Shown: in pieces, positions 28,915 to 48,489 of the stretch | Layout: each line of letters starts with the position of its first letter | Numbering within the stretch: the first letter of the stretch is position 1 | DNA from: Ideonella paludis | Lineage (GTDB): Bacteria; Pseudomonadota; Gammaproteobacteria; Burkholderiales; Burkholderiaceae_C | Direction of reading: 5' to 3' | DNA length: 64,000 bases | NCBI RefSeq assembly: GCF_018069865.1 | Contig: NZ_JAGQDG010000007.1 | Coordinates: 124,001 to 188,000, forward strand | Notes under the pieces: generated by a model | Databases searched by the model: none | What the model was told of the DNA's origin: nothing | The model's input: only the letters and a program-made list of their open reading frames with translations | Translations under genes and position numbers: made by a program

Positions 28915-28934
28915 AGGGCGCGTTCGCGCGCCTT
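28915..28934. terminator. UUCG-capped hairpin between convergent globin and DUF1839 genes
   Basis: GGCGCG (28917-28922) and CGCGCC (28927-28932) pair around a TTCG loop, with two more pairs (A-T and a G-T wobble) at the base. The very stable tetraloop and position between two stops suggest a bidirectional terminator. T-tracts are minimal. Confidence 0.55.
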
Positions 28935-29949
28935 AGGCCTGAAGTTGGTCCAGCGCCGCGAAGCCACGGTCCCAAGCGCTGGCCAGGGTATCGAACAGCG
29001 GGCTCAGGTCCGTCGGCTTGGCTGACATCACCGCCCGCGCGCCCTTGAGGATCAGCGTCTTGCCGGTCTGGCCGATCTCGTCGAAGGCGGCGACGGCGGG
29101 CTCTGCCGCGGGGCCAAGCTCCAGCCAGCGCAGCCAGCGCGAGGCCAACTCAAAACCGGCGCCCATTTGCCGCGTGCCGGCAAAGGCCCAGACGTGATAG
29201 TGATCCAGCCCTTGCTCGCGCAGCCACGGCAAATCTTGGTGGAAGCGCTGGCCAAAGCGGTGCATGGGGTTGTCGGTGGGGCGGCGCTTCAGCAAGTCCG
29301 GCAGCTGGGCTCGGCCTTGAGCTTGAAGCTCCGCCAAGGGGCGAGACACACGGCGGTCGCTGCGAATGACCTCGGCAAACAGCGGCAGATAGCTGGGGTC
29401 GGCGGGCTGGCCCAGCCGGAAGGTGCGGTCGAAGTCTTCACCCTCCAGCGCATAGCAGCCCGCGTTGTGGAAGTAGACCAAGCGCTTGGCGGCGACATCG
29501 ATGTCGGCCAGCACGATGGTGGTCTTGGAATGGTTCTGGCGGTAATCGGTGCCGGCCACATCGGGCAGCCAAAACGCATCGGCTTCGACGCTGATCAGCT
29601 TGCCGGCGCTCAGGTGCTCCAGGGCGTGATCCAGCAGCGGGCGCCAGAGCGTCAGCTCTTGGACATCCAGGCCATAGCAGCGCCGGAGTTCGTCGTGCGA
29701 GGGCTTGAAAAAAGTCCACTGGTCGCCTTCAAAGTCCAGCGGCAGCGTTACGCCCAGCATGGCATGAGGGTCCAGCCCCATGGCATGCAGCAGCTCGATC
29801 CACAGGTCGGCATAGCAGTTTTTCTCGGGCCACACCGCGCCCTCACCATGCAGGGCATGGCGCTGGTAGTGGGCGGGGTCCAGGCCGGGCAGGGCGGTGG
29901 CGCGGGACAGTGCCAAGGTGTCGAGGGTGCTGCGCAAGCTCATGCTCAT
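28933..29949 (-). CDS. DUF1839 family protein, candidate carrier-protein-dependent aminoacyltransferase
   Basis: About 338 residues from ATG 29949 (ATG 29943 is also possible). The fold cannot be proven by eye, but the layout resembles the cysteine-protease-like BtrH_N type. Cys45 begins a helix (EKNCYADLWIELLHAMGLDP); FFKPSHDELRRCYGLDV follows; then a strand with LISVEADAFWLP, His140 in DYRQNHSKTTIVLADIDV, and Asp149/Asp151 just after. That Cys/His spacing could support acyl transfer from a carrier-protein thioester. It follows the aa:CP ligase gene by 13 bases on the same strand, and such genes commonly accompany aa:CP ligases. The acceptor is unknown. No signal peptide or membrane segment. 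Confidence 0.7.
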   Translation of the reverse strand: MSMSLRSTLDTLALSRATALPGLDPAHYQRHALHGEGAVWPEKNCYADLWIELLHAMGLDPHAMLGVTLPLDFEGDQWTFFKPSHDELRRCYGLDVQELTLWRPLLDHALEHLSAGKLISVEADAFWLPDVAGTDYRQNHSKTTIVLADIDVAAKRLVYFHNAGCYALEGEDFDRTFRLGQPADPSYLPLFAEVIRSDRRVSRPLAELQAQGRAQLPDLLKRRPTDNPMHRFGQRFHQDLPWLREQGLDHYHVWAFAGTRQMGAGFELASRWLRWLELGPAAEPAVAAFDEIGQTGKTLILKGARAVMSAKPTDLSPLFDTLASAWDRGFAALDQLQA

Positions 29950-29962
29950 CCGGATTGGACAC

Positions 29963-30883
29963 TCAAGGCCAGAGTTGGGCGCGCACATCGGCGGGCCATT
30001 GGTTCACGTCAAAACCGTGGGTCTTGATCAGCGCCAGGGTGACGCGCTCCAGGCCAAAGCCCAGGCAGGCGGTGTGGGCGGTGCTGCCGTCGGCACGCTG
30101 GATGCCGAACTTGCCGGTGAAGTGCTCTTGGTGCCAGTTGAAGGAGCAGATGGCGGTGGGCTTTTCCTCGGAGATGACCGGGACCATGATCTCGAACTTC
30201 AGCTGCTGCTCGCGCTGGCTGGTCGCCATCATCTTGCCGGCCTTGCCAAAGAAGGGGTCGTTGGCCACATCGCTGATCACCGGCAGCTTCAGGCCCTGCA
30301 ACAGGCGCAGGCCGCGCTCCAGCCAGGCGTTGCGCCAGGCTTGGACATCGTCGGGGGCGCCAACGCGGATGTATTCGCGCATGCGGAAGGATTGCAGGCG
30401 GGTGGGCTCATCCGAGGGCTCGTGCCGGTAGCACCAATTGCGCACGGTCACCAAGCGGCCACCGTCGGGCAGCAGGCCACTGAAGACGGGGTAGACCGGG
30501 TAGCAGGCGGCCGGCAACAGCATGCTTTCGGTGATCTCTAGCGCCTCTTCCCAGCGCTCGCCGTTGCGGGCCTTATCAGCCATGGCGCGGGCGTCGAGCT
30601 CTTTGCCGAAAAAGCTGTGGATGCTGCCGATGAGCTGCGGGAAGTTGTCCAGATAGCCCATCTTCTCGATCATCGTGCGCGCGACGATGGGCGGAAAGGT
30701 CATGGTCTCGGCGCCGTCGCCTGCGGCTTCGCGCTGGACCAGCGCGTCAAAGCGGTCGAGGATGTCCTCGAACACCGCACCGCGGCCGTAGCCGCCCTTG
30801 ATGGGGGTGGGAATGATCAGGCCATGGGCCACCAGGCCGTCGTAGAAGGCCTTGGGGTCGTAGCGGTCTTGAGGTGTGGTCAT
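29963..30883 (-). CDS. Amino acid:[carrier protein] ligase (seryl-tRNA synthetase-like, no tRNA-binding arm)
   Basis: 306 residues from ATG 30883. This is a class II aminoacyl-tRNA-synthetase catalytic core lacking the N-terminal coiled-coil that binds tRNA. Motif 2 is RNWCYRHEPSDEP...RLQSFRMREY and motif 3 is ACLGFGLERVTLAL. The zinc ligands known for this family (Cys-Glu-Cys, as in archaeal-type SerRS) match Cys127, Glu170 and Cys273. Characterised homologues activate glycine or alanine with ATP and load it on the phosphopantetheine of a small carrier protein, not on tRNA. The cognate carrier protein is probably the gene at 33545-33793. It lies 13 bases after the acyl-CoA dehydrogenase gene. 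Confidence 0.9.
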   Translation of the reverse strand: MTTPQDRYDPKAFYDGLVAHGLIIPTPIKGGYGRGAVFEDILDRFDALVQREAAGDGAETMTFPPIVARTMIEKMGYLDNFPQLIGSIHSFFGKELDARAMADKARNGERWEEALEITESMLLPAACYPVYPVFSGLLPDGGRLVTVRNWCYRHEPSDEPTRLQSFRMREYIRVGAPDDVQAWRNAWLERGLRLLQGLKLPVISDVANDPFFGKAGKMMATSQREQQLKFEIMVPVISEEKPTAICSFNWHQEHFTGKFGIQRADGSTAHTACLGFGLERVTLALIKTHGFDVNQWPADVRAQLWP

Positions 30884-30896
30884 GGTGGGTTCGGGG

Positions 30897-32072
30897 TCAG
30901 TCGTCTTTGTGGACCAACAGCAGGGCGGCGCTCTTGGCAGCAATACGGTCGTTGGAGACCATCAGCGAGCCCGACAGCGCGTCGCGCAGCGGGCGGCCCA
31001 TCGCGTAAGGGCCGTCATTTTTGTAGCCCTGGATGCCCACGATCTGCAGCGCGGCGATCACGATCTGCGGCGCGGCCTCCGAGGTAGAAATCTTCAGGTT
31101 GTTCATGCGCAGCGCCCAGCTCAGGCTGCTGTAGGACTCCACCTTGTCGCCGGCGGCCACAAAGCCGTCGTACTCATCGGCAATGGCCATGATCTGCTGG
31201 CGAATGACCTGCAGCCGGGTGTTGAGCTCGGCCAAGGGCAGGGCCTGGGGCGGCACGGTGCCCGGGTTCTTGCGGGCCAGGGTGCGCACATACTGGGCGG
31301 CCTTGCCATAGGCGCCGGCCGCAATGCCCATCCACAGTGCCGACCACAGGATGTGCGAGTAAGGGACCATGGACGCCGCCGAAATCTCGGCATAGTCCAC
31401 GGGCAGCACATGGTCGATGGGGCCGGTGGCACTGAACTTATAGCCCGGGCTGCAGGTGCCGCGCATGCCCAAAGTGTCCCAGGTGCTGGTCTGCTCCAGC
31501 GTCAGGTCGGACTTGCGGTTGTAGACCAAGCACTGGTCGTTGGCGGCAGAGTCGGCCGTCTTGCGGCAAGTCACCAAGATGACGTCGGCATCGGCGCAAT
31601 AAGAGCCGGTGGTGGCATCCTTGTTCAGGCGGTAGCTGTCGCCCAACCTTTCGACGGCGCAGATACTGCTTCGGGTATCGCCAAAAGTGCCCACTTCTGA
31701 GGTGATGGAGGCGATCAGGTGCTGGTGCTCGCAGAGTTCGCGCACGCGCTGCAGCAGCGTGGGGTTGCCACCCGTGTTGCGCATCAAGCAGGCCACCTGG
31801 CTGTAATGCATGGTCAGCACCATGGCGGCCGAGGCGCATCCCGGCGCCAGCGCGGAGACGATCTGCGCCAATTGCCGCATGCTGCAGCCCGAGCCGCCCA
31901 GCTCCCGCGGCACCGGGGCTGACATCAGCTTGGCGGCGCGCATGGCTTCCACGGACTCCCGAGGGAACCGGCCTTTGACATCCACGTCATTGGCATGCAA
32001 GGCGGACACCTCCTTGCTGATGCGGTGGGCGGCGTCGAGCAAGGCGTCGAAAGAAGGGGCAAGGGTGGACAT
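30897..32072 (-). CDS. Acyl-CoA dehydrogenase-family flavoenzyme, likely acting on a carrier-bound acyl or aminoacyl group
   Basis: 391 residues with the ACAD three-domain order. The N-terminal helices contain LMSAPVPRELGGSGCSMRQL; the middle beta domain contains DSYRLNKDATTGSYCADAD and WDTLGMRGTCSPGY; the C-terminal helices contain the FAD-binding LQIVGIQGYKNDGPYAMGR. The usual catalytic glutamate position is not obvious to me, so the reaction cannot be assigned. First gene of the minus-strand trio with the aa:CP ligase and DUF1839 genes. Precedent: ACAD homologues oxidise prolyl-carrier protein to pyrrolyl-carrier protein in natural-product pathways. Confidence 0.85.
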   Translation of the reverse strand: MSTLAPSFDALLDAAHRISKEVSALHANDVDVKGRFPRESVEAMRAAKLMSAPVPRELGGSGCSMRQLAQIVSALAPGCASAAMVLTMHYSQVACLMRNTGGNPTLLQRVRELCEHQHLIASITSEVGTFGDTRSSICAVERLGDSYRLNKDATTGSYCADADVILVTCRKTADSAANDQCLVYNRKSDLTLEQTSTWDTLGMRGTCSPGYKFSATGPIDHVLPVDYAEISAASMVPYSHILWSALWMGIAAGAYGKAAQYVRTLARKNPGTVPPQALPLAELNTRLQVIRQQIMAIADEYDGFVAAGDKVESYSSLSWALRMNNLKISTSEAAPQIVIAALQIVGIQGYKNDGPYAMGRPLRDALSGSLMVSNDRIAAKSAALLLVHKDD

Positions 32073-32278
32073 GTAACGGTTCCAGTAAGGACGGGTGAGC
32101 CAAAGGGCTTGCCGTCAGAAGGACATGCCTTGAATTTTGCGGGCAATGCGTCAGTTGTTCGCGAAATCAAGCTCACGAAACGGTGAGGCTCGCGAGAAAA
32201 TCACGGGAAACTTTGTCTCGGGCAGAGGATTGCGCCAAGCTTGCGCTGGCGGGCTTGTCTTTCTCTGTCTTTTTCGTC

Positions 32279-32938
32279 ATGTCCTCACCTGCCTTTAATG
32301 CCACAGACCCTGCCCCGCGTTGCTTGGTGCTGCTGCTGCATGGCTTGACCATGCTGCCGCAGACCATGCAGGCATTTGCCAAAGTCCTGGAGCCGCAGGC
32401 CTTGGTGTGTTGCCCGGCCGGGCCGGTGCAGTACCCGGATGGATCGCTGTCCTGGTGGCCGGTGGACCTGGCCAAGCGTGAGGCCGCCCTGGCGACAGGC
32501 CCCGTTGACTTGGCCCAGCGGTCCCCCAAAGAACGCGCACGAGCGAGGGAGGCTTTGCATGAGGCAGTGCGGGCTGCCCGCGCACAGCACCCCGGTTTGC
32601 CATTGGTGCTGGCGGGGTTTTCGCAAGGGGGCATGTTGGCCGTTGACTACTTGCTGCAACACCCCGACGCTCAGGCCGATGCCTTGGCGCTGATGTCGGC
32701 CTCGCGCATTGACCTTGACACCTGGCAGCCCTTGCTGCCCCGATTGGCAGGATTGCCGGTGTGGGTGACGCACGGGCGCCTCGACAACGACCTGGCCTTC
32801 AGCGCCGGTGAAGGCTTGCGCGACATGCTTCACACAGCGGGCGCGCACGTGCAGTGGCAGCCCTTTGACGGGGGGCATGAGCTGACGATGGTGGTGTGGC
32901 GGGGCTTGCGCCGATTTGTCCATGGGCTCTACCCATGA
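32279..32938 (+). CDS. Phospholipase/carboxylesterase-type alpha/beta hydrolase
   Basis: 219 residues from ATG 32279; the frame extends upstream to 32183, but that part is not family-like. It has the LLLHGLTM oxyanion strand, nucleophile elbow GFSQGG, catalytic Asp in HGRLDNDL and His in GGHEL, matching small carboxylesterases (YpfH/acyl-protein-thioesterase-like). It is the first gene of the plus-strand side, divergent from the flavoenzyme across about 206 bases that should hold both promoters. A housekeeping or editing-thioesterase role is possible. Confidence 0.8.
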   Translation: MSSPAFNATDPAPRCLVLLLHGLTMLPQTMQAFAKVLEPQALVCCPAGPVQYPDGSLSWWPVDLAKREAALATGPVDLAQRSPKERARAREALHEAVRAARAQHPGLPLVLAGFSQGGMLAVDYLLQHPDAQADALALMSASRIDLDTWQPLLPRLAGLPVWVTHGRLDNDLAFSAGEGLRDMLHTAGAHVQWQPFDGGHELTMVVWRGLRRFVHGLYP

Positions 32939-33028
32939 TCACGTTAGCTCCGTTATCATCCGCCCGCCTCTGGCCCCTTGGCGCCGGTGCAGCCGGTCCA
33001 TGCCGCTGGGGCGCGGGCCGTCGGTGAC

Positions 33029-33523
33029 ATGGACCCCTTCGTCTTCAACGCTGCCACCGCCCCCTCCATGCAGACTCTCCAGATTGACCCTCAGTGGGCC
33101 GCCCGCGCGCTGCCGGGCCAGCGCTTGTGCGCAGGCATCGACACCGTGGCGCTGGCCTCCCTGCGTGAGTCACTGGCCGCGTTTGGTCCGCGCTTTGTGC
33201 AGCGCTTGTTCACCGCTCAAGAGCAGGCGGTGGCGGCCGAAAGTGTCGATGGCGGCGTAGAGCGCTTGGCGGCGCGCTTTGCCGCCAAAGAAGCGGCCAT
33301 CAAGGCCTTTGGCTTGTCTGAGGTGGGCGTCGATTGGCGCCAGATTGAAGTGTTTCGATTGCCCTCGGGCAAGCCAGAGCTGCGCCTGCATGGCCGAGCC
33401 CTGGCGCATGCCCAGGCGCTGGGCGTGCGCAGCATGACGGTGTCTTTGAGTCATGACGGCGAGCAGGCCTGTGCCTTGGTCGTTGCTGTGGCTGATGAGG
33501 CCGCATCCCCCGAATGTGTTTGA
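33029..33523 (+). CDS. AcpS-type 4'-phosphopantetheinyl transferase
   Basis: 164 residues from ATG 33029; ATG 33068 is an alternative, and neither has a good ribosome-binding site. AcpS motifs are LCAGIDTVALASL, with metal-binding Asp38, and RFAAKEAAIKAFGL, with Glu88 and Lys92. It is longer at the N-terminus than stand-alone AcpS (about 125 residues). It should transfer phosphopantetheine from CoA to the carrier protein encoded 21 bases downstream. A dedicated PPTase suggests the housekeeping AcpS does not serve that carrier well. Confidence 0.85.
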   Translation: MDPFVFNAATAPSMQTLQIDPQWAARALPGQRLCAGIDTVALASLRESLAAFGPRFVQRLFTAQEQAVAAESVDGGVERLAARFAAKEAAIKAFGLSEVGVDWRQIEVFRLPSGKPELRLHGRALAHAQALGVRSMTVSLSHDGEQACALVVAVADEAASPECV

Positions 33524-33531
33524 TTTTTGAC

Positions 33532-33537
33532 GAGGAG
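33532..33537 (+). promoter_or_regulatory. Strong ribosome-binding site of the carrier-protein gene
   Basis: GAGGAG ends 7 bases before ATG 33545 and decides that start over the ATG-like codon 18 bases upstream. It is the best ribosome-binding site in this run, fitting high expression of a small carrier protein. Confidence 0.7.
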
Positions 33538-33544
33538 ATTTTCC

Positions 33545-33793
33545 ATGAGTGCTTCTGTTGCTGAGCGTATCCGAGCCATCCTGGCCAAGCATGGCAAGCT
33601 GTCGCAAGACGCCGCAGCCCTGGCTGCTGATGCTGACCTGTACGCGGCGGGCATGACCTCGCACGCCAGCGTCAACGTCATGCTGGCGCTGGAGGGTGAG
33701 TTCGACATTGAGTTCCCCGACCACTTGCTGACCCGCGCTGTGTTCTCCAGCGTGGCAGCGATCCAAGCTGCCGTGGAAGAGCTGACCGCCTAA
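33545..33793 (+). CDS. Small acyl/aminoacyl carrier protein
   Basis: 82 residues. A four-helix carrier-protein pattern is visible, with the phosphopantetheine site at Ser39 in LYAAGMTSHASVNVML. The site is TSH, not the DSL of fatty-acid ACPs, as also occurs in carrier proteins charged by amino acid:[carrier protein] ligases. LEGEFDIEFPDHLL is helix-III-like. Context: dedicated PPTase 21 bases upstream, GH2-like gene 13 bases downstream, aa:CP ligase 3 kb away on the other strand. Confidence 0.88.
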   Translation: MSASVAERIRAILAKHGKLSQDAAALAADADLYAAGMTSHASVNVMLALEGEFDIEFPDHLLTRAVFSSVAAIQAAVEELTA

Positions 33794-33806: not shown

Positions 33807-36332
33807 ATGCGCCGCCTAGCCCGCGTCCCCGACAGCCCGCTGCGCCTGCCCCTGGTGGGCCAGTGGGCCATGGTGCGGCTTGAGGGCGACGCAGTGCCCG
33901 GCGACGACGCCGACTGGATCGCTTTGCCAGGCCCCATGACCGTGGCGGCAGGATTGCAGCGGGCTGGTCTCTGGCACTTGGCGTCCTCCACGCGAGACTT
34001 TGACCAGGAAGGCTGGTGCTTCCGCTGCTGCTTTGACGCGCCCGCCGGTACAGGGCTCGGCCAGCCGCTGTGCTTGGGGCTGGACGGCCTGGCCACCGTG
34101 GCCAGCGTCAGCCTGAATGGTGAAGTGCTGCTGCACAGCCAAAACATGTTTCGTCAGCATGAGCTGCTGCTGCCGCAGGGCGTGAAGCCGAACGGCAACG
34201 AGCTGCTGATTCGCTGCGAGCCTCTGGCGCCGCTGCTGGCCCAGCGGCGTGGCCGCCCGCGTTGGCGCACGCCCATGGTGCCGCAGCAGCAACTGCGCTG
34301 GGTGCGTACCACTCTGTTGGGGCGCACGCCGGGCTGGTCTCCCAACGCGCCCGCCATCGGCCCTTGGCGGGACGTGTGGTGCGAGCCTCTGGCGCCCCGC
34401 CGCTTGACCCACTTGAGCTGGCAGGCTGAGGTGGTCGACGGCCAAGGACGGCTGCGTGTGGCGCTGGCCAGCCAGGCGCCTGAAGCTCTGCGCGCCGCCG
34501 CCATCAGCCTCGTGTGCGGCGAACAGCGTGTGCAAGCTGCGTTGCTGCCGGGCGACGAAGGGCGCTGGCAGGCCGAGGTGGTGGTGCCCGAGCCCGCCTT
34601 GTGGTGGCCGCACACCCATGGCCGGCCTGCGCTTTACGAGGTGTCACTGCACTGGCCGGGTGATGAGGCTGCGCAACACCTTGGACGCGTGGGCTTCCGG
34701 ACGGTGACGCTGGACACCGCCCAACAAGGCTTTGGGCTGCAGATCAACGGTGTGCCCGTTTTTGCCCGCGGCGCTGTGTGGACACCGCCTGACGCTCTGT
34801 CACTGCACGCCCCCGGCGAGCAGTATCACGATCTCTTGAAGCCCCTGTGCGCGGCGGGTTTGAACATGCTGCGGGTGGCTGGGCCCATGGTGTATGAATG
34901 CCCCGCCTTCTTCGACGCTTGCGACGCGCTGGGAGTGATGGTCTGGCAAGACCTGATGTTCGCCAATATGGACTACCCGGGCGAGGACGCCGCCTTTTTG
35001 GCAGAGGTCGAGGCCGAGGTCACCCAGCAGGCGCAGCAATGGCAGGCCCGGCCCAGCGTGGTGGTGGTTTGCGGTAACTCAGAAGTTGAGCAACAAGCTG
35101 CCATGTGGGGGGCGCCGCGCGAGGCCTGGGAGTCGGCGTTGTTTCATCAGCATGTGCCTGCGCTGCTGGCTCAGGTGTTGCCTGGCGTGGCGTATTGGCC
35201 GTCCAGCGCCCACGGTGGTGCGCTGCCTTTTCAGCCTTCGGTGGGCACGTGTTCTTATTACGGCGTGGGCGCCTACAAGCGCCCCTTGGAGGACGCGGCC
35301 AGCAGCCGCGTGAGATTTGCGACCGAGGCCCTGGCCTTTGCCAACATTCCTGGTGACGATACCCTGGCAACGCTGCGCGAGCTGTCGCAAGGTCAGGCGG
35401 CGCGGGTGCACGGCCCGCTCTGGAAGCAAGGCGCGCCGCGTGACCTGGGGGCCGGATGGGACTTTGACGATGTGCGCGATCATTACGTCGAAACCCTCTA
35501 CGGTGTCCGGGCCGATCATCTGCGCGCCTATGACCCCGCACGGCATCTGATGCTGGGCCGCGCGGCGGTGGCTGAAACCATGGCCGCCGCATTTGCGCGC
35601 TGGCGCTCCGCGGGCTCGGCGTGCCGCGGCGCCTTGGTCTTCACGCTGCGCGACCTGCGCCCCGGTGCGGGCTGGGGAGTGCTGGATGATGTGGGACGGC
35701 CCAAGTCGGCGCTTCATGGTTTGGCTTCGGCATGGCAGGCGCGCAGCCTGCTGCTGACGGATGACGGGCTCAACGGCGTCACCTTGCAGTTGGTGAACGA
35801 TCCGGCCGAGGCCGTGACCGGCGAGGTGGAGCTCAAGCTGTTCCGCGACGGGCAGGTGGTGGTGGCCGAAGGCCGCGCCCCGGTGACGGTGGCAGGTCAT
35901 TCGGTCACGGCGGTGCCGGCGCAGGCTTTGCTCGAAGGCTTTCTGGATATCAACTGGGCCTACCGCTTTGGGCCGCCGGTGGCCAATGTGCTGTGGGCGG
36001 GCTGGCGCAATCAGCAAGGCGAGCTGCTCTCTGAGCGGCTGATGTTCCTGCCGACGGTGGCGGGCTTGCAGGGTCAGGAGCTGGGCTTGAGCGCCCAGGC
36101 CCAGACCCAAGCAGATGGGTCGCGTCGCGTGACCCTCAGCACCCAGCGGGCGGCGCGCGGTGTTCACTTCGAGGCAGAAGGCTGGGTCGCAGACCACGAG
36201 TGGTTTGACTTGGCCCCGGCCGCCTCGCGCACGGTGGTTTTGAGACCCAGTGGCGCCAAGGTGCGTGCATTCCGCGGCCTGGTGCAGGCCATCAACGGAT
36301 TGGCGCCCGCTGTGATCAGCGGAGGGGCTTGA
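33807..36332 (+). CDS. GH2-family (beta-mannosidase-like) glycoside hydrolase, apparently cytoplasmic
   Basis: 841 residues. Domain order: N-terminal sugar-binding jelly roll (residues about 10-170), immunoglobulin-like domain (about 190-305), TIM barrel (about 310-620), and C-terminal beta domains. The barrel has the GH2 pattern: MLRVAGPMVYECPAFFDACD; MVWQDLMFANMDYP; acid/base Glu426 in VVCGNSEVEQQ (WNGNNE in beta-mannosidases); nucleophile candidate Glu507 in FATEALAFANIP. No signal peptide is visible, which is unusual for a polysaccharide-degrading enzyme. It may edit or recycle glycosyl intermediates, or act on a lipid- or carrier-linked precursor. It sits between the carrier-protein gene and the hydrolase, with tight spacing. 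Confidence 0.8.
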   Translation: MRRLARVPDSPLRLPLVGQWAMVRLEGDAVPGDDADWIALPGPMTVAAGLQRAGLWHLASSTRDFDQEGWCFRCCFDAPAGTGLGQPLCLGLDGLATVASVSLNGEVLLHSQNMFRQHELLLPQGVKPNGNELLIRCEPLAPLLAQRRGRPRWRTPMVPQQQLRWVRTTLLGRTPGWSPNAPAIGPWRDVWCEPLAPRRLTHLSWQAEVVDGQGRLRVALASQAPEALRAAAISLVCGEQRVQAALLPGDEGRWQAEVVVPEPALWWPHTHGRPALYEVSLHWPGDEAAQHLGRVGFRTVTLDTAQQGFGLQINGVPVFARGAVWTPPDALSLHAPGEQYHDLLKPLCAAGLNMLRVAGPMVYECPAFFDACDALGVMVWQDLMFANMDYPGEDAAFLAEVEAEVTQQAQQWQARPSVVVVCGNSEVEQQAAMWGAPREAWESALFHQHVPALLAQVLPGVAYWPSSAHGGALPFQPSVGTCSYYGVGAYKRPLEDAASSRVRFATEALAFANIPGDDTLATLRELSQGQAARVHGPLWKQGAPRDLGAGWDFDDVRDHYVETLYGVRADHLRAYDPARHLMLGRAAVAETMAAAFARWRSAGSACRGALVFTLRDLRPGAGWGVLDDVGRPKSALHGLASAWQARSLLLTDDGLNGVTLQLVNDPAEAVTGEVELKLFRDGQVVVAEGRAPVTVAGHSVTAVPAQALLEGFLDINWAYRFGPPVANVLWAGWRNQQGELLSERLMFLPTVAGLQGQELGLSAQAQTQADGSRRVTLSTQRAARGVHFEAEGWVADHEWFDLAPAASRTVVLRPSGAKVRAFRGLVQAINGLAPAVISGGA

Positions 36333-36334
36333 GC

Positions 36335-38164
36335 GTGCAGCCAGGCCTGGGCCTCGCTGCGCAGCCCTTCTACCTCGACACGCGGGGTGGCACGGTCCTG
36401 TGCTGGTGGCACGCCCCGGCACAGCCGGCCGTTGCGCATCCGGTCTTGATGTGCCCGACCTGGGGTGACGAAGAGATTGGCGCCTACGCGGGCTGGCGTG
36501 CGTTGGCGAATAGCCTGGCGCTGCAAGGGGTGCCGGTGCTGCGTTTGGACTTGCCCGGCGAGGGCGATAGTTTGCCTCGGGCCGCCGGGGCTTCTGCCTG
36601 GTCAAGTTGGCTGGACGCCTTGGACGATGCCGCCCTGGCGCTGTTGCAGGTGTCGGGCTCGCCCAAGGTCCACCTGCTGGGCTTGCGCCTGGGCGCCTTG
36701 TTGGCGGCTCAGTTGGCTGACCGTTTGCGTCAGCGCGCGGATCAGGTGGCCTCGCTGCTGCTGTTGGCGCCGGTGGCCTCGGGACGCGCCTTTTTGCGGG
36801 AGGCGCGATTGCTGAGCCAGGTGCCGCAGGGCGAGCCCTTGCAGGCCGGCGAGGCGATGGCCGGTGGCTTTGTGCTGGATGCCCCGAGTGCCGAGGCACT
36901 GGCCGCAGCCCAGTGGCCAACGCCGCAGGCCTCAGGGCAGAGGGCGGCTTGCCCGGTGTTGCTCTTGGAGCGCAGCGACCGTCCACTGCCCGAGGCCGCA
37001 CGGGCTTCCTTGGCGGCTTGGGCGGGCGTGGAGCGCTTGCAGGGTGAGGTGCGCGACGACCTGGCGACGACCACGGCCATTGCGCACTCTGCAGTGTGGC
37101 CGGACTTGACGCAGCCCTTGCGGTCGTGGCTTGTGCAGGCCGGGGCCGCTGCGTCGGACTTGGTGGGCTTGGTCTGGCCTGGTGTAGCGCCAAGCGCCGC
37201 GGGCCCGGGCTGGACGGAAGAGCTCGTCAGCTATGGCCCAGGCTTGGTGGCGCAATGCACGCGCCCAGCCTCTCGGTCTGCGCGGGCCACCCTCTTTTTG
37301 TCGAGTGGGGCGGAGCGGCGCATCGGCCCGCATCGGCTGTGGGTGGACTTTGCCCGGCAGTGCGCGGCCCGCGGTGAGCTGTGTTTGCGACTCGACCTGG
37401 GGGGTATCGGTGACAGTGTGGCCCGTGACACTGCTGGCGCATCGCCCTCGCGTGCCGACCAGGTCTACGACGCCCGATGTGTGGACGACGTCCGTGCCGC
37501 CTTGCGGTGGCTGGAGCAGACGCACGGTGTCACCCAGGTGAGGCTGGTGGGCCTGTGTTCGGGGGCCTACCACGCCTGGCGCTGCGCCGTGGCGGGGCTG
37601 CGGCTGAGTCATGTTGTGGCGATCAATCCCTTGGTCTACCACTGGCGCTCAGGCATGTCATTGGACCCGACACACCATGCTTTTGGACAGATTGATATCG
37701 CCGATGGTGCTGTACGCTCCTTGAAAGACCCCGCCCGTTGGATGAAGTTGCTGCGGGGGCAGGTGCACGTCAGGGTGATCCTCCGAGCGATGGCGGCTCG
37801 GTTGATGGGCCGGCTGCAGAACATCTCTCGCCATGTCGGCCGTCGGCTGCATTGGCCACTCTCAGAGGATGTGGTGAGCGATTTGAGGCAAGTGATCCGT
37901 CATGCAACGCCCCTCAGCTTTGTATTCTCCGAGGGAGACCCGGGTCAGGCCCTGCTGCGCCAAGAGGCGGGCTCGTTCTTAAAGGGTCAAATTGCCAGCG
38001 CTCGCGTGCACTTGACCACGATTGAGCGCTCGGATCACACCTTTTCGACGCGAACTGGTCGTGATAGCTTGTATAACTGTCTGAATAGCATCCTCTCCGC
38101 AGCGAGCGATTTCGCCGTGCGCGAGGATCAGAACTTGGCGTCCGTGACGCCCCAGCAGTCATGA
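36335..38164 (+). CDS. Tandem two-domain alpha/beta hydrolase-like protein of the exopolysaccharide locus
   Basis: About 609 residues from GTG 36335, which has GGAGGGG seven bases upstream; TTG 36329 is the alternative. Two alpha/beta-hydrolase folds lie in tandem. The first (residues about 10-260) has GLRLG where the nucleophile elbow should be (around residue 116-120), so the usual serine is replaced by arginine. The second (about 280-590) has GLCSGA with a cysteine near residue 408. Those two elbow forms resemble, from memory, the exosortase-A-system-associated hydrolases 2 and 1, which are usually separate genes. No exosortase is in the window. The C-terminal IERSDHTF could supply the histidine. 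Overlaps the next gene by 4 bases. Confidence 0.75.
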   Translation: MQPGLGLAAQPFYLDTRGGTVLCWWHAPAQPAVAHPVLMCPTWGDEEIGAYAGWRALANSLALQGVPVLRLDLPGEGDSLPRAAGASAWSSWLDALDDAALALLQVSGSPKVHLLGLRLGALLAAQLADRLRQRADQVASLLLLAPVASGRAFLREARLLSQVPQGEPLQAGEAMAGGFVLDAPSAEALAAAQWPTPQASGQRAACPVLLLERSDRPLPEAARASLAAWAGVERLQGEVRDDLATTTAIAHSAVWPDLTQPLRSWLVQAGAAASDLVGLVWPGVAPSAAGPGWTEELVSYGPGLVAQCTRPASRSARATLFLSSGAERRIGPHRLWVDFARQCAARGELCLRLDLGGIGDSVARDTAGASPSRADQVYDARCVDDVRAALRWLEQTHGVTQVRLVGLCSGAYHAWRCAVAGLRLSHVVAINPLVYHWRSGMSLDPTHHAFGQIDIADGAVRSLKDPARWMKLLRGQVHVRVILRAMAARLMGRLQNISRHVGRRLHWPLSEDVVSDLRQVIRHATPLSFVFSEGDPGQALLRQEAGSFLKGQIASARVHLTTIERSDHTFSTRTGRDSLYNCLNSILSAASDFAVREDQNLASVTPQQS

Positions 38165-39357
38165 CCAATACATCCTCACGCCGAATTGCCATCATGGGCA
38201 TCCGTGGCGTGCCCGCGCAACATGGCGGTTTCGAAACTTTTGCTGAACGTTTGGCCCCTTATCTCGTCCGTTGTGGGTGGGATGTCACCGTCTATTGCCA
38301 AGAGGACCAAAAAGGCCCGGTGACGGAATCTGACTGGCAAGGGGTTCGGCGGGTTCACATCGGCGTTGGTGAAGACACGGCGCTCAACAGCATTCACTTC
38401 GACTGGGCTTGCATTCAGCATGCCGTCCGCGAAAAGGCAGCGTTGGTGCTGACGCTTGGCTACAACACTGCGGTGTTGGGCCTGCGTCTGCGCATGGCCG
38501 GGATTTGCCATGTCATCAATATGGACGGCATCGAATGGGCGCGCGATAAATGGGGGCCGATTGCCAAGGCTTGGCTGTACCTGAACGATTGGGCGGGCTG
38601 CTTGGGCGGCCACCACTTGTTGGCCGATCACCCCATGATTGCGCGGCACTTGGCCGGTCGTGTGGACAAACGCAAGATCAGCACCATTCCCTACGGCACA
38701 GACATCATCCGCCAGGCGCCAGCCGATTTATTGGCCCCCTTGGGTGTGGCCTCGGGCCAGTTTCTGACCTTGATTGCGCGTCCCGAGCCCGAAAACTCGG
38801 TGTACGAGATCGTCAAGGCTTTTTCGGCTCGGCCGCGCGGGGTCAAACTGCTGGTTTTGGGCAGTTACAAGCCGCAGCAGAACGCGTTTCACGCCAAAGT
38901 CATGGCGGCCGCCAGCCAAGAGGTGGTGTTTGCTGGCGCCATCTACGACCATCAGGTTGTCAATGCGATTCGGCTGCATGGACTACTTTATTTGCATGGA
39001 CACCAAGTAGGAGGCACAAATCCGTCACTGGTTGAGGCCATGGGTGCTGGAAATCCCGTTCTGGCGCACGACAATCGCTTCAACCGCTGGGTCGTTCGAG
39101 AAGGCGCCTGGTATTTCAAGGACTTGGACAGTTGTGTCGAAGCCTTGGATGCTTTGTTGGCCGACCCTGAAGAGCGCCAGCGGATGTCGCGTGCCAATCG
39201 TCAGAGGGCTGTGGAAGCCTTCAGTTGGCCCGTGGTTTTGTCTCAATATGAAGTGACGCTGAGTGTCCTCTATGGGCGTGCGGCTGGGGGTACGGGCGAT
39301 GTGACGCCGCCCTATGCCGGCAGCTTGGATACCGTGAATACGATTGACCTGCTATGA
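38161..39357 (+). CDS. GT4-type glycosyltransferase with DUF1972 N-terminal domain (rhamnosyltransferase-like)
   Basis: 398 residues. Starts with IAIMGIRGVPAQHGGFETFA, the hallmark of DUF1972 glycosyltransferases, followed by a GT-B fold: LLADHPMIARHL and IPYGTDIIR at the domain junction, and in the C-terminal lobe GLLYLHGHQVGGTNPSLVEA, the nucleotide-sugar-binding HxxGGTNPSLVEAM motif. Family members often transfer rhamnose or similar sugars. Cytoplasmic, building the lipid-linked repeat unit. Overlaps its neighbours by 4 bases on each side. Confidence 0.88.
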   Translation: MTNTSSRRIAIMGIRGVPAQHGGFETFAERLAPYLVRCGWDVTVYCQEDQKGPVTESDWQGVRRVHIGVGEDTALNSIHFDWACIQHAVREKAALVLTLGYNTAVLGLRLRMAGICHVINMDGIEWARDKWGPIAKAWLYLNDWAGCLGGHHLLADHPMIARHLAGRVDKRKISTIPYGTDIIRQAPADLLAPLGVASGQFLTLIARPEPENSVYEIVKAFSARPRGVKLLVLGSYKPQQNAFHAKVMAAASQEVVFAGAIYDHQVVNAIRLHGLLYLHGHQVGGTNPSLVEAMGAGNPVLAHDNRFNRWVVREGAWYFKDLDSCVEALDALLADPEERQRMSRANRQRAVEAFSWPVVLSQYEVTLSVLYGRAAGGTGDVTPPYAGSLDTVNTIDLL

Positions 39358-40469
39358 ACCCCAGCCGCCAAGCCTCATTCAGTCTGGCCCGTGTGCTCCG
39401 TTTGGTGACGGGGCTGTTGGTCGTGGGCAGCCTGGTCGCCTGCAGCAGCCTGACGCCGCCGGCGCAAACCTCTGGGCCGGTGCCGTTTTTGCGCCTCGAC
39501 ATGGACGGGCAGGTCGCGGCCGCGCAAGCCACGGCCGATGGCGCCACCCTGCCGACGGGTTTGGACGCTGAGCCCGCCTTGCCCCCCTATCGCTTTGGCG
39601 TGGGCGACGAGTTCGACCTGCGTGTCCCGGATGCGCCGCAGTTTGACTTGGCCTTGAAGGTGCGGCCGGATGGCAAGGTCAGCCTGCCCATGATCGGCAC
39701 GCTGCATGTCAAGGGGCGTTCGCCTGAAGACGTCCAAGACGAAGTGCGCGAGCGCTTGAATGCCTTGTCCGGTGGCCCGGGCAACCGTGAGTACCTGCTG
39801 CACACCAACGACGAGTTGGAGATCAAGTTCCCCTACATGCCCACGCTCAACGAGTCCGTGCGGGTGCGGCCAGACGGCAAGCTGCAACTGCAGATGGTGG
39901 GGGTGGTGCAAGCCGAAGGGCTGAGCCCTGAAGAGTTGCAGGCGCAGCTCAAACAACGCTATGCCAAGTTTTTGCGCTCGCCCGAGGTGTCGGTGCTGGT
40001 GCGTAGTTTTGGCACGCAAAACGTTCGGGTGGGCGGTGAAGGCACCGGCCGGGCCGGCTTGGCCAACCTGAGGCCCAACATCATTGCGCGCAGCACCCAA
40101 GCCACCCAGGTTTTTGTGGGCGGCGAGGTGGCGCGTCCAGGCGTCCTGGCCTATCGCCCAGGCTTGTCTTTGCTGCAAGCCTTGATCGAAGCCGGCGGCC
40201 AGTTGCCCAGTGGCGACGTGACGCAGATGGTCATCTTGCGCCGTGGCGCGAACGACAAGGTTGAAGTCTTCCCGCTGCGCTTGTCGGCCACCTACTTCCG
40301 GGCGCCCAACAAGGACATCCAACTTCAGCCCTTCGATGTGGTCTTGCTGCCGAAGTCGGGCATCTCCACGCTGGGCGATCAGTTGAACCAATATGTTTTC
40401 AACCTCTTCCCCTTGATCCGGAACAGCGCACTTGGCCTGTCCTACAACTTGCGCTCCAACACGCCTTGA
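39354..40469 (+). CDS. Wza-type polysaccharide export lipoprotein with duplicated Poly_export domain
   Basis: 371 residues. The lipoprotein signal is VTGLLVVGSLVACSSL (lipobox LVAC, Cys about residue 30). Two successive Poly_export units are visible: residues about 78-135 (VGDEFDLRVPDAPQFD, KVRPDGKVSLPMIG) and about 145-215 (TNDELEIKFPYMPTL, RVRPDGKLQLQMVG). An SLBB domain follows (residues about 255-330, FVGGEVARPGVLAYRPG). The C-terminus probably forms the outer-membrane helix. It forms the outer-membrane exit pore of the export machine with the Wzz-like protein. Most homologues have one Poly_export unit, so the repeat is notable. Confidence 0.9.
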   Translation: MNPSRQASFSLARVLRLVTGLLVVGSLVACSSLTPPAQTSGPVPFLRLDMDGQVAAAQATADGATLPTGLDAEPALPPYRFGVGDEFDLRVPDAPQFDLALKVRPDGKVSLPMIGTLHVKGRSPEDVQDEVRERLNALSGGPGNREYLLHTNDELEIKFPYMPTLNESVRVRPDGKLQLQMVGVVQAEGLSPEELQAQLKQRYAKFLRSPEVSVLVRSFGTQNVRVGGEGTGRAGLANLRPNIIARSTQATQVFVGGEVARPGVLAYRPGLSLLQALIEAGGQLPSGDVTQMVILRRGANDKVEVFPLRLSATYFRAPNKDIQLQPFDVVLLPKSGISTLGDQLNQYVFNLFPLIRNSALGLSYNLRSNTP

Positions 40470-40495
40470 GCGCGGGCCAAACACCTTTCAGCGTC

Positions 40496-41863
40496 ATGTC
40501 CTCCACTCAGACTCTCTTCAGCCCGCCAGGCAGCGCCGCAGAACCGGCCATGACCTTGCAAGATGGCTTGGCCATGCTGGCCCGCCAAGCCATCTTGATC
40601 CTCATCACCATGGCCGTGCTGACCGCAGTCACCTTGTGGTTGCTGGGGGGGCAGAAAAAGGTCTACACCACCACAGCACGGATCTGGATTCAGACGGAGC
40701 AACAAGGCACGCCCGCGTTCTTGTCGGGCCTGGCGGCTTACCGGGACTCGCCCTATCCCGACCCCGTGGCGCGCAAGATTGAAACCGAAATGGAGCTGCT
40801 GCTGACGCGCTCCAACGCGGCAGATGTGATTCGCCGCTTCAAGCTCACCGAAGACCAATTGGCCTTCAAGCCCATGGACCATGTGAAAAACAAGGTCTCC
40901 AAACTGCTGGGTATTGAGGACGACTATGTGGGCCAAGACGCCAAGTCAGGCCCACCCGTGGATGCCCTGGTCGACCAGTTGCTCAAAGGGATCAAGGTCA
41001 GTCCACGTCGCTCCGGCACGGCGGACACCTCCTCCAACGTGTTGGAGATTGAGCTGGAGTCCACCGATGGCGAGGTCGCGCCCAAGATTTTGGCGGCGCT
41101 CATTGAAGGCTATCTCAAACTCTCGGCCGAGCAGTCTCAACAACAGGCCACGACCACCAGCCGTCTTATCGAGCGGCAGATGATTCAGGCGCGGGATGAA
41201 TTGCGCGCCGTTGAGGGTGAAATCACTGAGGTGCTGATGCGTCAGGCGCGTCGGGCCGAGTCTGACGGTACCGGTGGCTCTTTGGTGACCGCCCGCACGG
41301 GGGCAGCCTTGCAAGGCGAAGCCGATGGCGGAGCGACCCAGCTCAAGAACCACATGATGGAGCTGCAGATTCAGCTTGATCAGGCGCGACAGCTCTACAC
41401 CGAGGACGCTGAGCCGGTGAAGGCTGCCAAGCGTCGGCTGGCGGCGGCCGAGGCCCGCCTGCGGCAGGGCATGGGAGACGGCGTCAAGACCAGTGCGGAC
41501 ATCAGCCGCTTGGAGCGCCAGCGCAATTTGGCGCAAGAGCGCTATGTGGAGTTGCGCAAGCGGCTCGACCAGATCGAGCTCTATTTGCAGGCCAACCAAG
41601 AAGAGAACCAAGCACGCACCGTCGTGGACAACGCCAGCGCGGCCTCGGGTTCAGGCAAGGCCAAACAGTTGATGCTGATGGCACTGGGCCCGATTTTGGG
41701 CTTGGCCTTGGGTCTGCTGTTGGCCGGCGTGCGCGAGTTCATGGATGGTCGGATGCGCTCGCCCAAGGATGTTCGGCAAACCTTGGGCTTGCCAGTCTTG
41801 GGCCAGGTCAGTGAGCTGAGTCGTTCGGCGCGCCGGTCCTTAGAGCAGAACAGGGGTGGGTGA
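40496..41863 (+). CDS. Wzz/GumC-type chain-length determinant protein
   Basis: About 455 residues from ATG 40496 (TTG 40466, overlapping the previous stop, is the alternative). A transmembrane helix near the N-terminus (ILILITMAVLTAVTLWLLGG) and one near the C-terminus (LMALGPILGLALGLLLAG) flank a long periplasmic coiled-coil (residues about 205-365). A basic/Pro C-terminal tail (RSPKDVRQTLGLPVLGQV) is cytosolic. Polysaccharide co-polymerases of this kind set chain length and connect to the Wza pore. The cytosolic ATPase is a separate protein encoded next. Confidence 0.9.
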   Translation: MSSTQTLFSPPGSAAEPAMTLQDGLAMLARQAILILITMAVLTAVTLWLLGGQKKVYTTTARIWIQTEQQGTPAFLSGLAAYRDSPYPDPVARKIETEMELLLTRSNAADVIRRFKLTEDQLAFKPMDHVKNKVSKLLGIEDDYVGQDAKSGPPVDALVDQLLKGIKVSPRRSGTADTSSNVLEIELESTDGEVAPKILAALIEGYLKLSAEQSQQQATTTSRLIERQMIQARDELRAVEGEITEVLMRQARRAESDGTGGSLVTARTGAALQGEADGGATQLKNHMMELQIQLDQARQLYTEDAEPVKAAKRRLAAAEARLRQGMGDGVKTSADISRLERQRNLAQERYVELRKRLDQIELYLQANQEENQARTVVDNASAASGSGKAKQLMLMALGPILGLALGLLLAGVREFMDGRMRSPKDVRQTLGLPVLGQVSELSRSARRSLEQNRGG

Positions 41864-41867
41864 GCGC

Positions 41868-42509
41868 ATGTTGTCTAAGTTGTTTGGTGGCTCATCTCTA
41901 CCTTCTATCGACTTGCTGGCCATCGACCGCATGGCCCTGCACCTGCGGCACGACAACGACGGTGCGGTAGAAGGGCGTGTGTTCATCGTCACCAGTGCCC
42001 GGCCCGGGGAAGGCAAATCGCTGATTGCACGTTTGTTGGCCCAGGCGGCTGCGCGGCACCAAGAAGGCGATGTGCTCCTGATGGATGCTGGCATCACGGC
42101 CAATGCGGCTGAAGCGGCTTCGGCGGGCTTGGCGGAGCTGTTGGCCGGTGCGCCTTTGGATGGCCTTGTCACTCAAAGCGGCAGCCCCAGTTTGTGGCAG
42201 CTGTGGCGGGGTCACGGCTATCACGCCAGCCAGTTGTTCAGGGGCGCTCGTCTGCGCAGCGCGCTGGACAAGGTCCGTGCCCGCTTCCCGTTGACCATCA
42301 TCGATGCCCCCGAGCTGTCGGCCTGCGGCGCTTTGCTGGCCCTGGTTGATCAAGCCATTGTGGTGGTGGATACCCGTGTCACCACCGGTGAGGCGGTCAA
42401 GCAAGCCCTCGATACGGCGCTGGGCGTGGCGGGTGTTGGGCAAGAGCGCATTGCGGGCGTGGTGCTCAACCGGCAGTCACAGCGGCAAATTCGCTGGTCG
42501 GGGGGCTGA
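41868..42509 (+). CDS. Wzc/CpsD-like polysaccharide biosynthesis ATPase without tyrosine cluster
   Basis: 213 residues from ATG 41868 (GTG 41856 would overlap the previous gene). Walker A is TSARPGEGKSLIA; Walker A-prime is DVLLMDAG; Walker B is PLTIIDAPE. These are the BY-kinase order, and the protein pairs with the Wzz-like protein upstream. Only one tyrosine occurs in the sequence and there is no C-terminal tyrosine cluster, so it is not a conventional autokinase; it may act as a nucleotide switch only. It shares one base with the wzy gene (TGATG). Confidence 0.82.
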   Translation: MLSKLFGGSSLPSIDLLAIDRMALHLRHDNDGAVEGRVFIVTSARPGEGKSLIARLLAQAAARHQEGDVLLMDAGITANAAEAASAGLAELLAGAPLDGLVTQSGSPSLWQLWRGHGYHASQLFRGARLRSALDKVRARFPLTIIDAPELSACGALLALVDQAIVVVDTRVTTGEAVKQALDTALGVAGVGQERIAGVVLNRQSQRQIRWSGG

Positions 42510-43990
42510 TGCGCGGCGGGCTTCCCCTGTTGGAGGCCGCCTTCTGGTCGCTTCTGGCCTGTGGAGCTGCGGTCGTCTCTGCCATGGTGATGGTGGGGGT
42601 CTCGCCCACCAAGTCGGTGGCCATGGTCGCGGTCGTCTTGTGTGGCTGCGTGTTTCTTTGGTTGCGCCACTACCGCGCCAGCCTGCTGGCATTGACCTTT
42701 GGGCTGGTGCCCATGGACATGAGCAAGGCGGTCTTCCCGCCCTTGGAGCTCTACTACTCGCCGGGCCTCTACCTCTATGCCCCCCAGGCGCTCTCCATCG
42801 TTTTGCTGGGCATGGCCTTTGTGCGGTGGTTCATGGTCACCAAGCGCTTGCCCAAGTTCGAACCCATCGACGGCTTGGTGGCGGTCTTTTTGACCTGGGT
42901 CTGGATTTCAGCCATCGGCTCACCGCAAGGCGCACTGGCCCTGGCCACGGCCCTGGCCTACACCTTGATCGTGGCCGCCTACTACGCTGCGGTGGTGTCC
43001 GTGCGGGAGATGCGCGACGTGCGCGCCATCTTGTTTGGCGTCGGGGCCATTGTGCTGCTGCAACTCATTTGGGTCGCGCTGCAAGTCGTCACCAAGCAAC
43101 CCTTGGGCCTGCCGGGCAGCAAGAACGAAACCTCGGCCTTCATGGTGAATTTCGGCGGCGCGGGTGAGGCCATTCGGCCAGGCGGCTTTGCCGGCCACCC
43201 CAACGGTTTGGCGCACCACATGGTGATGGTCATTCCGGTCGCGCTGTCCTTTGCCTTGTTGGGTTTTCGCTTTATCTCAGCGCGGGTAATGGCCTTTGTC
43301 TGGGCTGTCTTGCTGGTGGCCGCAGTGATGCTGGTGCAGACCTTGTCACGCGGCGGCTGGCTCTCTGCGGGCATTGCCGGCCTGGTGCTGTTTGCTGTGA
43401 TGACGCGCCTGGGCGCCATCTCCGGGCGGCGCTTGGCGGGCGCGGTGTTGATGTCGATAGCGGCCCTGATGCTGCTGGTGGCCATCTTCCCGCAGACGAT
43501 TCTGCGTCTGACCGAGTCCGACGACCGCTCCTTGGAGGGCCGCATGGTCTTGAACGATCAGGCCATGGCCATCATTGAAGGCAATCCGCTCAAAGGGGTT
43601 GGCTTGGGGGCTTACAACCGCTCTACCTACGCCTACAACGGTCCGCTCTACGCCACCGTCTCGGAAGACTTCCAAAAGCAGTTGCGTACTGTGGTGGTGC
43701 ACAACGGTTATTTGTTGATGGCTGCTGAGTTGGGTATTCCGGCGCTGTTGCTGTTCTTTGTCATCTTGATCAAATTCCTGAGAACTCCCTGGCCGCTCAA
43801 TCGCTTCAAGGACCCGGTGCTTTTGACCTTGGCGATGGGGCTGTTGGCGAGTTTGCTGGGGCAAGCCATCTACTTCAGCTCTGACAACTACTACGTGGAT
43901 CAGCGGGTGGCCATGCTGTGGATGACCGCAGGCTTGCTGCGTGCGGTCACCCGCCTGGCCAGCGAAGCCCCGAGTGAGCCTGCAGCATGA
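42509..43990 (+). CDS. O-antigen-ligase/Wzy-type polysaccharide polymerase
   Basis: 493 residues with about 11-12 transmembrane segments, for example FWSLLACGAAVVSAMVMVG and LAYTLIVAAYYAAVV. A large periplasmic loop is near residues 200-230, and the Wzy_C signature has QTLSRGGWLSAGIAGLVLFA and VVHNGYLLMAAELGIPALLL. The histidine in VVHNGYL is conserved in Wzy/WaaL. It polymerises lipid-linked repeat units at the periplasmic face. Overlaps wzx by 4 bases. Confidence 0.9.
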   Translation: MRGGLPLLEAAFWSLLACGAAVVSAMVMVGVSPTKSVAMVAVVLCGCVFLWLRHYRASLLALTFGLVPMDMSKAVFPPLELYYSPGLYLYAPQALSIVLLGMAFVRWFMVTKRLPKFEPIDGLVAVFLTWVWISAIGSPQGALALATALAYTLIVAAYYAAVVSVREMRDVRAILFGVGAIVLLQLIWVALQVVTKQPLGLPGSKNETSAFMVNFGGAGEAIRPGGFAGHPNGLAHHMVMVIPVALSFALLGFRFISARVMAFVWAVLLVAAVMLVQTLSRGGWLSAGIAGLVLFAVMTRLGAISGRRLAGAVLMSIAALMLLVAIFPQTILRLTESDDRSLEGRMVLNDQAMAIIEGNPLKGVGLGAYNRSTYAYNGPLYATVSEDFQKQLRTVVVHNGYLLMAAELGIPALLLFFVILIKFLRTPWPLNRFKDPVLLTLAMGLLASLLGQAIYFSSDNYYVDQRVAMLWMTAGLLRAVTRLASEAPSEPAA

Positions 43991-45432: not shown

Positions 45433-45441
45433 GAGGGACTG

Positions 45442-46560: not shown

Positions 46561-46572
46561 GGCGCTGCTGTT

Positions 46573-47406: not shown

Positions 47407-47413
47407 GCGCGTC

Positions 47414-48442: not shown

Positions 48443-48489
48443 TTGGCCAGCACCTGCAACGCGAGGTCTTGGCCCCAACGAGTTAGAGC

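Follow-up and report, generated by a model that had tools for sequence, protein, structure and literature searches.

A recurrent set of aminoacyl-carrier genes and its flavoenzyme, CtaG-like and glycosidase partners beside polysaccharide genes in Ideonella paludis

Gene content and recurrence of the block

The 64,000 nucleotides of Ideonella paludis analyzed here (assembly GCF_018069865.1, contig NZ_JAGQDG010000007.1, positions 124,001 to 188,000; hereafter the window), from a genome of 4.8 Mb, contain a divergent gene block for an amino acid:[carrier protein] ligase, a carrier protein, a flavoenzyme, a DUF1839 protein and an AcpS-type phosphopantetheinyl transferase (PPTase). Such ligases have had solved structures and measured activities for over a decade. 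We confirmed the aminoacyl-carrier set and found that it recurs across genomes together with the flavoenzyme, the CtaG-like DUF1839 protein and a glycosidase.

The five proteins had been named in an earlier note on this DNA, and all five are present as open frames where it had placed them (Table 1); their identities were borne out, with the ligase and the carrier scoring over the NCBI curated cut-offs. The flavoenzyme, ligase and DUF1839 genes stand in that order on the minus strand, and the divergent plus-strand genes face away from them in the order of Table 1. Confirming that the plus-strand half runs into Wzx/Wzy polysaccharide genes, as the note had also said, the gaps from the small hydrolase gene to the last glycosyltransferase gene, GT2 (end 49428), are at most 47 bp, and four neighboring pairs overlap by 4 bp. 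The note had missed the glycoside hydrolase family 2 (GH2) enzyme, the protein of two alpha/beta-hydrolase domains (ABH2) and the small hydrolase, as well as the CtaG fold of DUF1839.

We compared 41 loci of the window's type (the window, 35 found via DUF1839 and five via the ligase) by profile search in all six frames over up to about 20 kb per locus (24 kb of the window). The carrier was found in 41/41, the ligase in 40/41, the flavoenzyme in 39/41, DUF1839 in 39/41, GH2 in 38/41 and ABH2 in 29/41, so the core of carrier, ligase and flavoenzyme held. The DUF1839 count is biased upward since most loci were located through that gene, and the misses are upper bounds, some loci lying near contig ends. 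The PPTase, which the earlier note had called dedicated, occurs in 18 of the 41 loci and is no fixed partner; the small hydrolase, a possible editing thioesterase, occurs in seven. Left out of the 41 were L082 and L083 (remote DUF1839, no ligase), the second copy in genome G173 (L095), weak hits in G377 and G429, the same-contig duplicates L010-L012 and L014, and the short L016.

We detected DUF1839 itself in four overlapping genome samples: genus, 4/16; family, 18/250; order Burkholderiales, 9/399 (8 of them above the cut-off); and phylum, 16/398. The combination of carrier, flavoenzyme, ligase, DUF1839 and GH2 is seen in several families within the order and also beyond it, and the gene arrangement exceeds chance. 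A near-identical locus is found in the record 'Ideonella sp. MAG2' (ligase identity 98%). A scan for promoters and terminators gave no promoter-like site, and terminator-like sites numbered 17 against 18.1 in shuffles.

Table 1. Genes of the divergent block and of the adjoining polysaccharide run in the window
Feature	Position	Strand	Evidence and remarks
DUF1839 protein (PF08893)	28933-29943	-	Pfam E=1.3e-101; predicted carrier-dependent acyltransferase, papain-like fold
Amino acid:[carrier protein] ligase	29963-30883	-	306 aa; NF005479 over cut-off
Flavoenzyme, acyl-CoA-dehydrogenase fold, without canonical catalytic Glu	30897-32072	-	PF02771/PF00441 over cut-off
Small alpha/beta hydrolase, PF02230-like, GFSQG motif	32279-32938	+	Frame open from 32183
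AcpS-type PPTase	32978-33523	+	PF01648 6.2e-15; true start probably further in
Carrier protein, phosphopantetheine site GMTS(39)H	33545-33793	+	NF005480 over cut-off
GH2 enzyme, beta-mannosidase type	33807-36332	+	PF22666 over cut-off; 5n6u 8.5e-44
ABH2, two alpha/beta-hydrolase domains	36329-38164	+	TIGR03101/TIGR03100, both under cut-off
Polysaccharide genes, in order: GT4, Wza, GNVR co-polymerase, kinase-like, Wzy, Wzx, GT4, PIG-L deacetylase, GNAT, GT2	38161-49428	+	

The ligase and its partner proteins

The window ligase scores 412 bits with NCBIfam NF005479 (cut-off 357). Among solved structures it is closest to amino acid--[ACP] ligase 1, or Bll0957 (4h2w, 4.1e-81; 3mey, 1.4e-79), its residues 29-302 aligning with 54-328 of the Bll0957 chain. 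It has a class II aminoacyl-tRNA synthetase (aaRS) core, and its length leaves no room for the N-terminal tRNA arm. Cys127, Glu170 and Cys273, which we take to be zinc ligands at positions that match those of Bll0957, are kept in 39/39 window-type rows; on the carrier, Ser39 is kept in 34/34. This ligase family is reported to load glycine or alanine onto a carrier (PMC9437257). From the homology to Bll0957 we strongly infer that the window ligase would load one of these two amino acids on its carrier.

We found that the ligases fall into two types with different partners. At E<=1e-40 the ligase profile hits 9/399 genomes in the order and 37/398 in the phylum; in the phylum sample, the 16 genomes with ligases above 460 bits are exactly the 16 that have DUF1839, and none of the 12 genomes with ligases at 350-381 bits has it. 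Nine of these twelve, with one genome of the order (G168), gave ten loci of the Bll0957 type, where profile search detected the ligase in 10/10, the flavoenzyme in 10/10 and the carrier in 8/10, and DUF1839, GH2 and ABH2 in 0/10 each. One ligase of this type, that of L130, matches the crystallized Bll0957 over its full length (713 bits) and is 45% identical to the window ligase. In a tree with the root drawn at the midpoint, the nine Bll0957-type ligases included form one separate clade (support 100/100). Hence, the solved enzyme represents the type in which the presumed transferase is missing, whose one partner in common with the window type, besides the carrier, is the flavoenzyme.

Beside these two types, a third, remote ligase-like class appears at 171 bits or less in nine phylum genomes in families f83, f87 and f100 (G667, G678, G682, G709, G725, G758, G766, G778 and G809), where the open frames span at least some 400 codons. 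Some Bll0957-type loci adjoin metabolic genes (homoserine O-succinyltransferase-like, Cys/Met-metabolism, AMP-binding and SDR). In Bradyrhizobium, a list in one paper places bll0957 and bll0958 (acyl-CoA dehydrogenase) together among the targets raised in a phaR mutant (PMC10888616).

The flavoenzyme has the fold and domains of acyl-CoA dehydrogenases without their catalytic Glu: position 372, which we take to be the site of that residue, is Val or Ile in 50/50 homologues (40 window-type, 10 Bll0957-type). Residues M88, H89, S122, Y158, S208, H240, W243, W247, N374 and R376 are common to these 50. Its profile matches among solved structures are mixed, namely a dehydrogenase (7p98, 1.4e-26), a nitrososynthase-type enzyme (3m9v, 1.2e-24) and a prolyl-ACP dehydrogenase (4irn, 1.2e-12), and the NCBIfam RedW model matches at 6.8e-11, under its cut-off. 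Since the dehydrogenase base is missing, and since glycine, if it is the substrate, offers no beta carbon, we would expect N-oxygenation or oxidation at C-alpha rather than formation of a C=C bond. It is plausible that the flavoenzyme oxidizes the carrier-bound amino acid.

For DUF1839, an AlphaFold2 model (predicted local distance difference test, pLDDT, 84.9; 9 sequences) has a papain-like fold with a helical C-terminal domain. All 11 Foldseek matches at E<=0.001 are CtaG or AziU3/U2, at whole length and of moderate quality (TM-score 0.53-0.62, root-mean-square deviation (rmsd) 6-7.4 Å, identity 13-17%). We take AziU3/U2 to act on carrier-bound substrates. CtaG is proposed to transfer an acyl group bound to one carrier protein onto an amino acid carried by another (PMC6772006). 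Since the significant matches are to CtaG and AziU3/U2 only, DUF1839 is probably the transferase.

The presumed catalytic residues of DUF1839 were counted in 42 rows (336-aa numbering): Cys43 is kept in 38/42 and His159 in 42/42. The Cys-less rows are one copy each in L061 and L063, together with L082 and L083, two loci without a ligase. The residue order is not that of a Cys-His-Asp triad, as Thr/Ser occupies the usual His place and His comes third. A 2023 survey had already assigned DUF1839 a papain-like fold in which Thr/Ser and His of the triad have exchanged places, and had guessed at a role in glycan processing; it describes BtrH, which has a papain-like domain, as an ACP:aminoglycoside acyltransferase (PMC10318531). 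The variants given in the CtaG entries are at C11, H128 and D144; H128 and D144 are 16 residues apart and T142 and H159 of DUF1839 are 17 apart, which agrees with the swap. BtrH is absent from the Foldseek matches at that threshold, and Pfam BtrH_N gave no match in 20 DUF1839 members at E<=5. Hence, DUF1839 would work like the CtaG/BtrH transferases, and we do not class it as a member of either family, given its triad order and the missing BtrH_N match.

In two genomes of one genus, the Cys is replaced by Gln (L061:7101-8081) and by Arg (L063:9535-10521), and Cys-bearing second copies (L061:11932-13152 and L095:88-1299) lie nearby or on another contig. Such duplicates are possibly a catalytic/non-catalytic pair.

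The constancy of GH2 as a partner is near that of DUF1839 (38/41 and 39/41 loci). The enzyme is closest to beta-mannosidases; Glu426 and Glu507, presumably the acid/base and the nucleophile, are kept in 38/38, and a rough hydropathy screen detected no signal peptide in 37/38, so it looks cytoplasmic. The two domains of ABH2 resemble exosortase-A-associated hydrolases 2 and 1 in tandem, under the cut-offs. In the first domain the nucleophile elbow is degenerate (Arg in 23/30, Gly in 7/30), and in the second Cys410 sits in a GxCSG motif (Cys in 29/30). The AlphaFold2 model of ABH2 is poor (pLDDT 56).

Polysaccharide genes in the neighborhood

Three polysaccharide marker families, PF02563 (Wza), PF04932 (Wzy) and PF02397 (initiating transferase), were located in 38 genomes, and the counts that follow hold among the matches listed. 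We found at least one marker within 20 kb of DUF1839 at 13/37 loci (at most 3.1 expected at random) and Wza at 10/37 (0.96 expected); for loci of the order, 12/26 have a marker (about 2.0 expected). The 37 include two rows without a ligase, both counted as hits: L070 (genome G425) and the second DUF1839 copy of G173, whose contig C159 begins at that gene. With ligase-bearing loci only, the counts are 11/35 for any marker and 8/35 for Wza, and within the order 10/24 have a marker against about 1.9 expected (a figure obtained by subtraction from the computed 1.5 and 0.5). The computed probabilities are nominal, since the sample holds related genomes, the window and two others from its genus among them, that do not count as independent. 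Random placement of the markers is rejected for the order and not outside it.

The genes that flank the module were also counted without preset families. On either side of 39 loci (the window and its near twin left out) we took, where there were any, the two closest genes outside the core that encode 150 aa or more, which gave 144 proteins; a like number was drawn from random regions in these genomes, 36 of the 40 contributing. With proteins above 600 aa removed, 20 from each set, 124 case and 124 control proteins remained. Glycan families are prominent among the best 25 of 146 families in the case flanks: Glycos_transf_1, Glyco_transf_4 and Glyco_trans_4_4 with 5 each (overlapping families, probably the same proteins), Bac_transf, Poly_export and Acyl_transf_3 with 4 each, Glycos_transf_2 with 3, and Epimerase and GDP_Man_Dehyd with 2 each; DAO and Radical_SAM, with 4 each, are there as well. 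These glycan families are absent among the best 25 of 182 families in the control, which reach down to families of one member; hence, each occurs at most once in the control flanks.

Reading the locus maps after the strict count, and thus post hoc, we found that in L084 and L086 ABH2 is fused behind a Wzx-type flippase in one open frame of 1103 codons, with ABH2 C-terminal; the flippase part matches PF13440 at 2.9e-11 and 5.3e-12, and the two genomes are of one genus, outside the order. In the same reading, and again outside the order, GH2 and ABH2 of L090 are separated by a flippase and a polysaccharide deacetylase, with a GNVR protein next, and a Wzz/GNVR protein adjoins the carrier in L085. 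Within the order the module is near polysaccharide genes more often than chance, a recurrent and not universal neighborhood. Among the papers listed by our literature searches on the ligase, none ties it to exopolysaccharide; the two subjects were never searched as a pair, and we do not claim absence from print.

Other neighbors recur as well. Acyltransferase-3 genes lie near the module in L066, L070, L073, L076, L077 and L091, fused to SGNH in L073; enzymes of this family O-acylate surface glycans. Genes for EF-P and for EpmA-like and EpmB-like proteins, another aaRS-derived modification system, stand near the module in L084, L086, L088 and L089, which belong to one family outside the order, and we take this proximity as a feature of that one clade only. 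In the window, a PIG-L deacetylase gene is followed by a GNAT gene within the polysaccharide run (46573-48442); the pair could free an amino sugar, which is a conceivable acceptor, and acylate it again. We set aside a mycothiol-like role for the PIG-L, GNAT and GT4 genes, which lie well downstream, farther out than most of the compared loci reach. A TadE-like gene follows the run on the minus strand (49456-50205).

Proposed pathway, alternatives and known systems

We consider it possible, at a probability of roughly 45%, that the block is a cytoplasmic carrier-based pathway which delivers a small amino acid, probably oxidized, to a sugar intermediate of the neighboring polysaccharide. The PPTase would arm the carrier at Ser39, and the ligase, by its homology to Bll0957, would very probably load glycine or alanine onto the arm. 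The flavoenzyme may then oxidize the carrier-bound aminoacyl group. As its fold and residues suggest, DUF1839 would take the acyl group on Cys43 and pass it to an amine or hydroxyl of the acceptor in the manner of CtaG and BtrH, and GH2 and ABH2 might act on the glycan or the acylated sugar ahead of flipping by Wzx. We favor this pathway because of the curated-family matches, the set conserved in 41 loci, the flavoenzyme common to both ligase types, the fold matches of DUF1839, the polysaccharide markers, the flank families and the ABH2-Wzx fusion. A narrower form, in which an undescribed polysaccharide modification joins ligase-loaded glycine or alanine, oxidized on the carrier by the flavoenzyme (for example to an N-oxygenated or alpha-imino form), by DUF1839 to an amino sugar in a lipid-linked repeat unit for export by the fused or neighboring Wzx, is unlikely.

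Several results weigh against this pathway. In L018 (Variovorax) and L019 (a gammaproteobacterium), we found no flavoenzyme, DUF1839 or GH2 within about 20 kb, although their ligases fall inside window-type clades (support 100/99); hence, the oxidation, transfer and hydrolase steps as drawn cannot be general. A genome-wide search of the two genomes detected no DUF1839, and the controls of that search were silent too, though the family was detected in other genomes. In both loci the ligase and carrier stand beside polysaccharide genes (in L019 with XrtA-type genes, one protein scoring over the TIGR03013 cut-off), which strengthens the tie of ligase and carrier to polysaccharides and weakens DUF1839 as the sole transferase. 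L070 has the carrier, flavoenzyme, DUF1839, GH2 and ABH2 in order and no ligase in 20 kb. Outside the order, a marker lies within 20 kb at 1/11 loci, as at random (1.06). The fold likeness to CtaG is only moderate (TM-score about 0.55-0.62, rmsd 6 Å, identity 13-14%), and in the ligase operons of L061 and L063 one DUF1839 lacks the Cys, each of the two genomes holding a second, Cys-bearing copy. As a separate observation, the flavoenzyme gene of L070 abuts DUF1839, and the ligase there is lost or located elsewhere.

The module might instead make a small diffusible metabolite, such as an oxidized, amide-linked and perhaps glycosylated amino acid, with the polysaccharide genes merely frequent neighbors. 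The core enzymes look cytoplasmic in the rough hydropathy screen, CtaG and AziU3/U2 belong to antibiotic pathways, some Bll0957-type loci adjoin metabolic genes, and at 24/35 loci with a ligase no gene of the three marker families lies within 20 kb; annotation of the flanks covers a minority of clusters, which leaves room for a recurrent exporter. We nevertheless rate a diffusible product as rather unlikely in view of the glycan families that top the case flanks and are absent from those listed for the control, the ABH2-Wzx fusion and the GH2 enzyme in nearly every locus. GH2, with both catalytic Glu residues, and the one or two hydrolases beside it would also suit an amino acid that is a temporary handle, coupled to a sugar or lipid-linked intermediate, oxidized there and cut off again so that the finished polymer is free of it; L018 and L019 are without GH2 in about 20 kb, and we hold this to be highly improbable.

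A further question concerns the chemistry of the flavoenzyme, which might be a true dehydrogenase that turns alanyl-carrier into dehydroalanyl-carrier, as prolyl-carrier dehydrogenases act on proline. Its best profile match is a dehydrogenase, and the prolyl-ACP dehydrogenase and RedW are among the others; set against these are a nitrososynthase-type match that scores nearly equal and the canonical Glu that is absent in all 50 homologues, and we consider a true dehydrogenase improbable.

The earlier note had joined the amino acid system to the exopolysaccharide genes by adjacency and orientation, and had held that ligase and carrier genes found mostly away from polysaccharide loci in related genomes would speak against the link. 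By the strict count most ligase-bearing loci do lie away, being unmarked, and judged against chance within the order they do not. The linkage thus stands in part: the excess in the order, the flanks, the fusion and the pair L018 and L019 speak for it, and the loci outside the order do not. Its observation is confirmed and its interpretation as a whole partly supported. For these ligases the survey identifies recurrent partners, among them a candidate transferase whose Cys lends itself to testing and a near-constant glycosidase, and places them in a polysaccharide context where one gene fusion occurs; it also tells apart two ligase types that differ in their partners.

We compared the block with known systems. 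Bll0957/Bll0958 of Bradyrhizobium pairs the same ligase family with a flavoenzyme, the carrier adjoining in most loci of that type; the type differs in having no DUF1839, GH2 or ABH2 and in the separate clade of its ligases. CtaG (closthioamide) and AziU3/U2 (azinomycin) share the whole-length fold of the window DUF1839, at low identity and high rmsd and with His and Thr/Ser apparently swapped in DUF1839, and BtrH (butirosin) belongs to the wider fold. The window Wza, co-polymerase, kinase-like protein and ABH2 resemble models from XrtA-associated polysaccharide loci, all under the curated cut-offs (in bits, TIGR03027 142/180, TIGR03007 64/279 and TIGR03018 52/231; for ABH2, TIGR03100 105/168 and TIGR03101 94/203); by these models the window does not qualify as an XrtA-associated locus, and the exosortase gene itself was not searched for. 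AlmEFG, which places glycine on lipid A, and DltABCD, which places D-alanine on teichoic acids, resemble the proposed pathway in moving a carrier-activated amino acid to a surface glycan. These systems activate the amino acid with AMP-binding domains and transfer it with membrane acyltransferases, whereas the window has an aaRS-derived ligase and a soluble papain-like protein instead.

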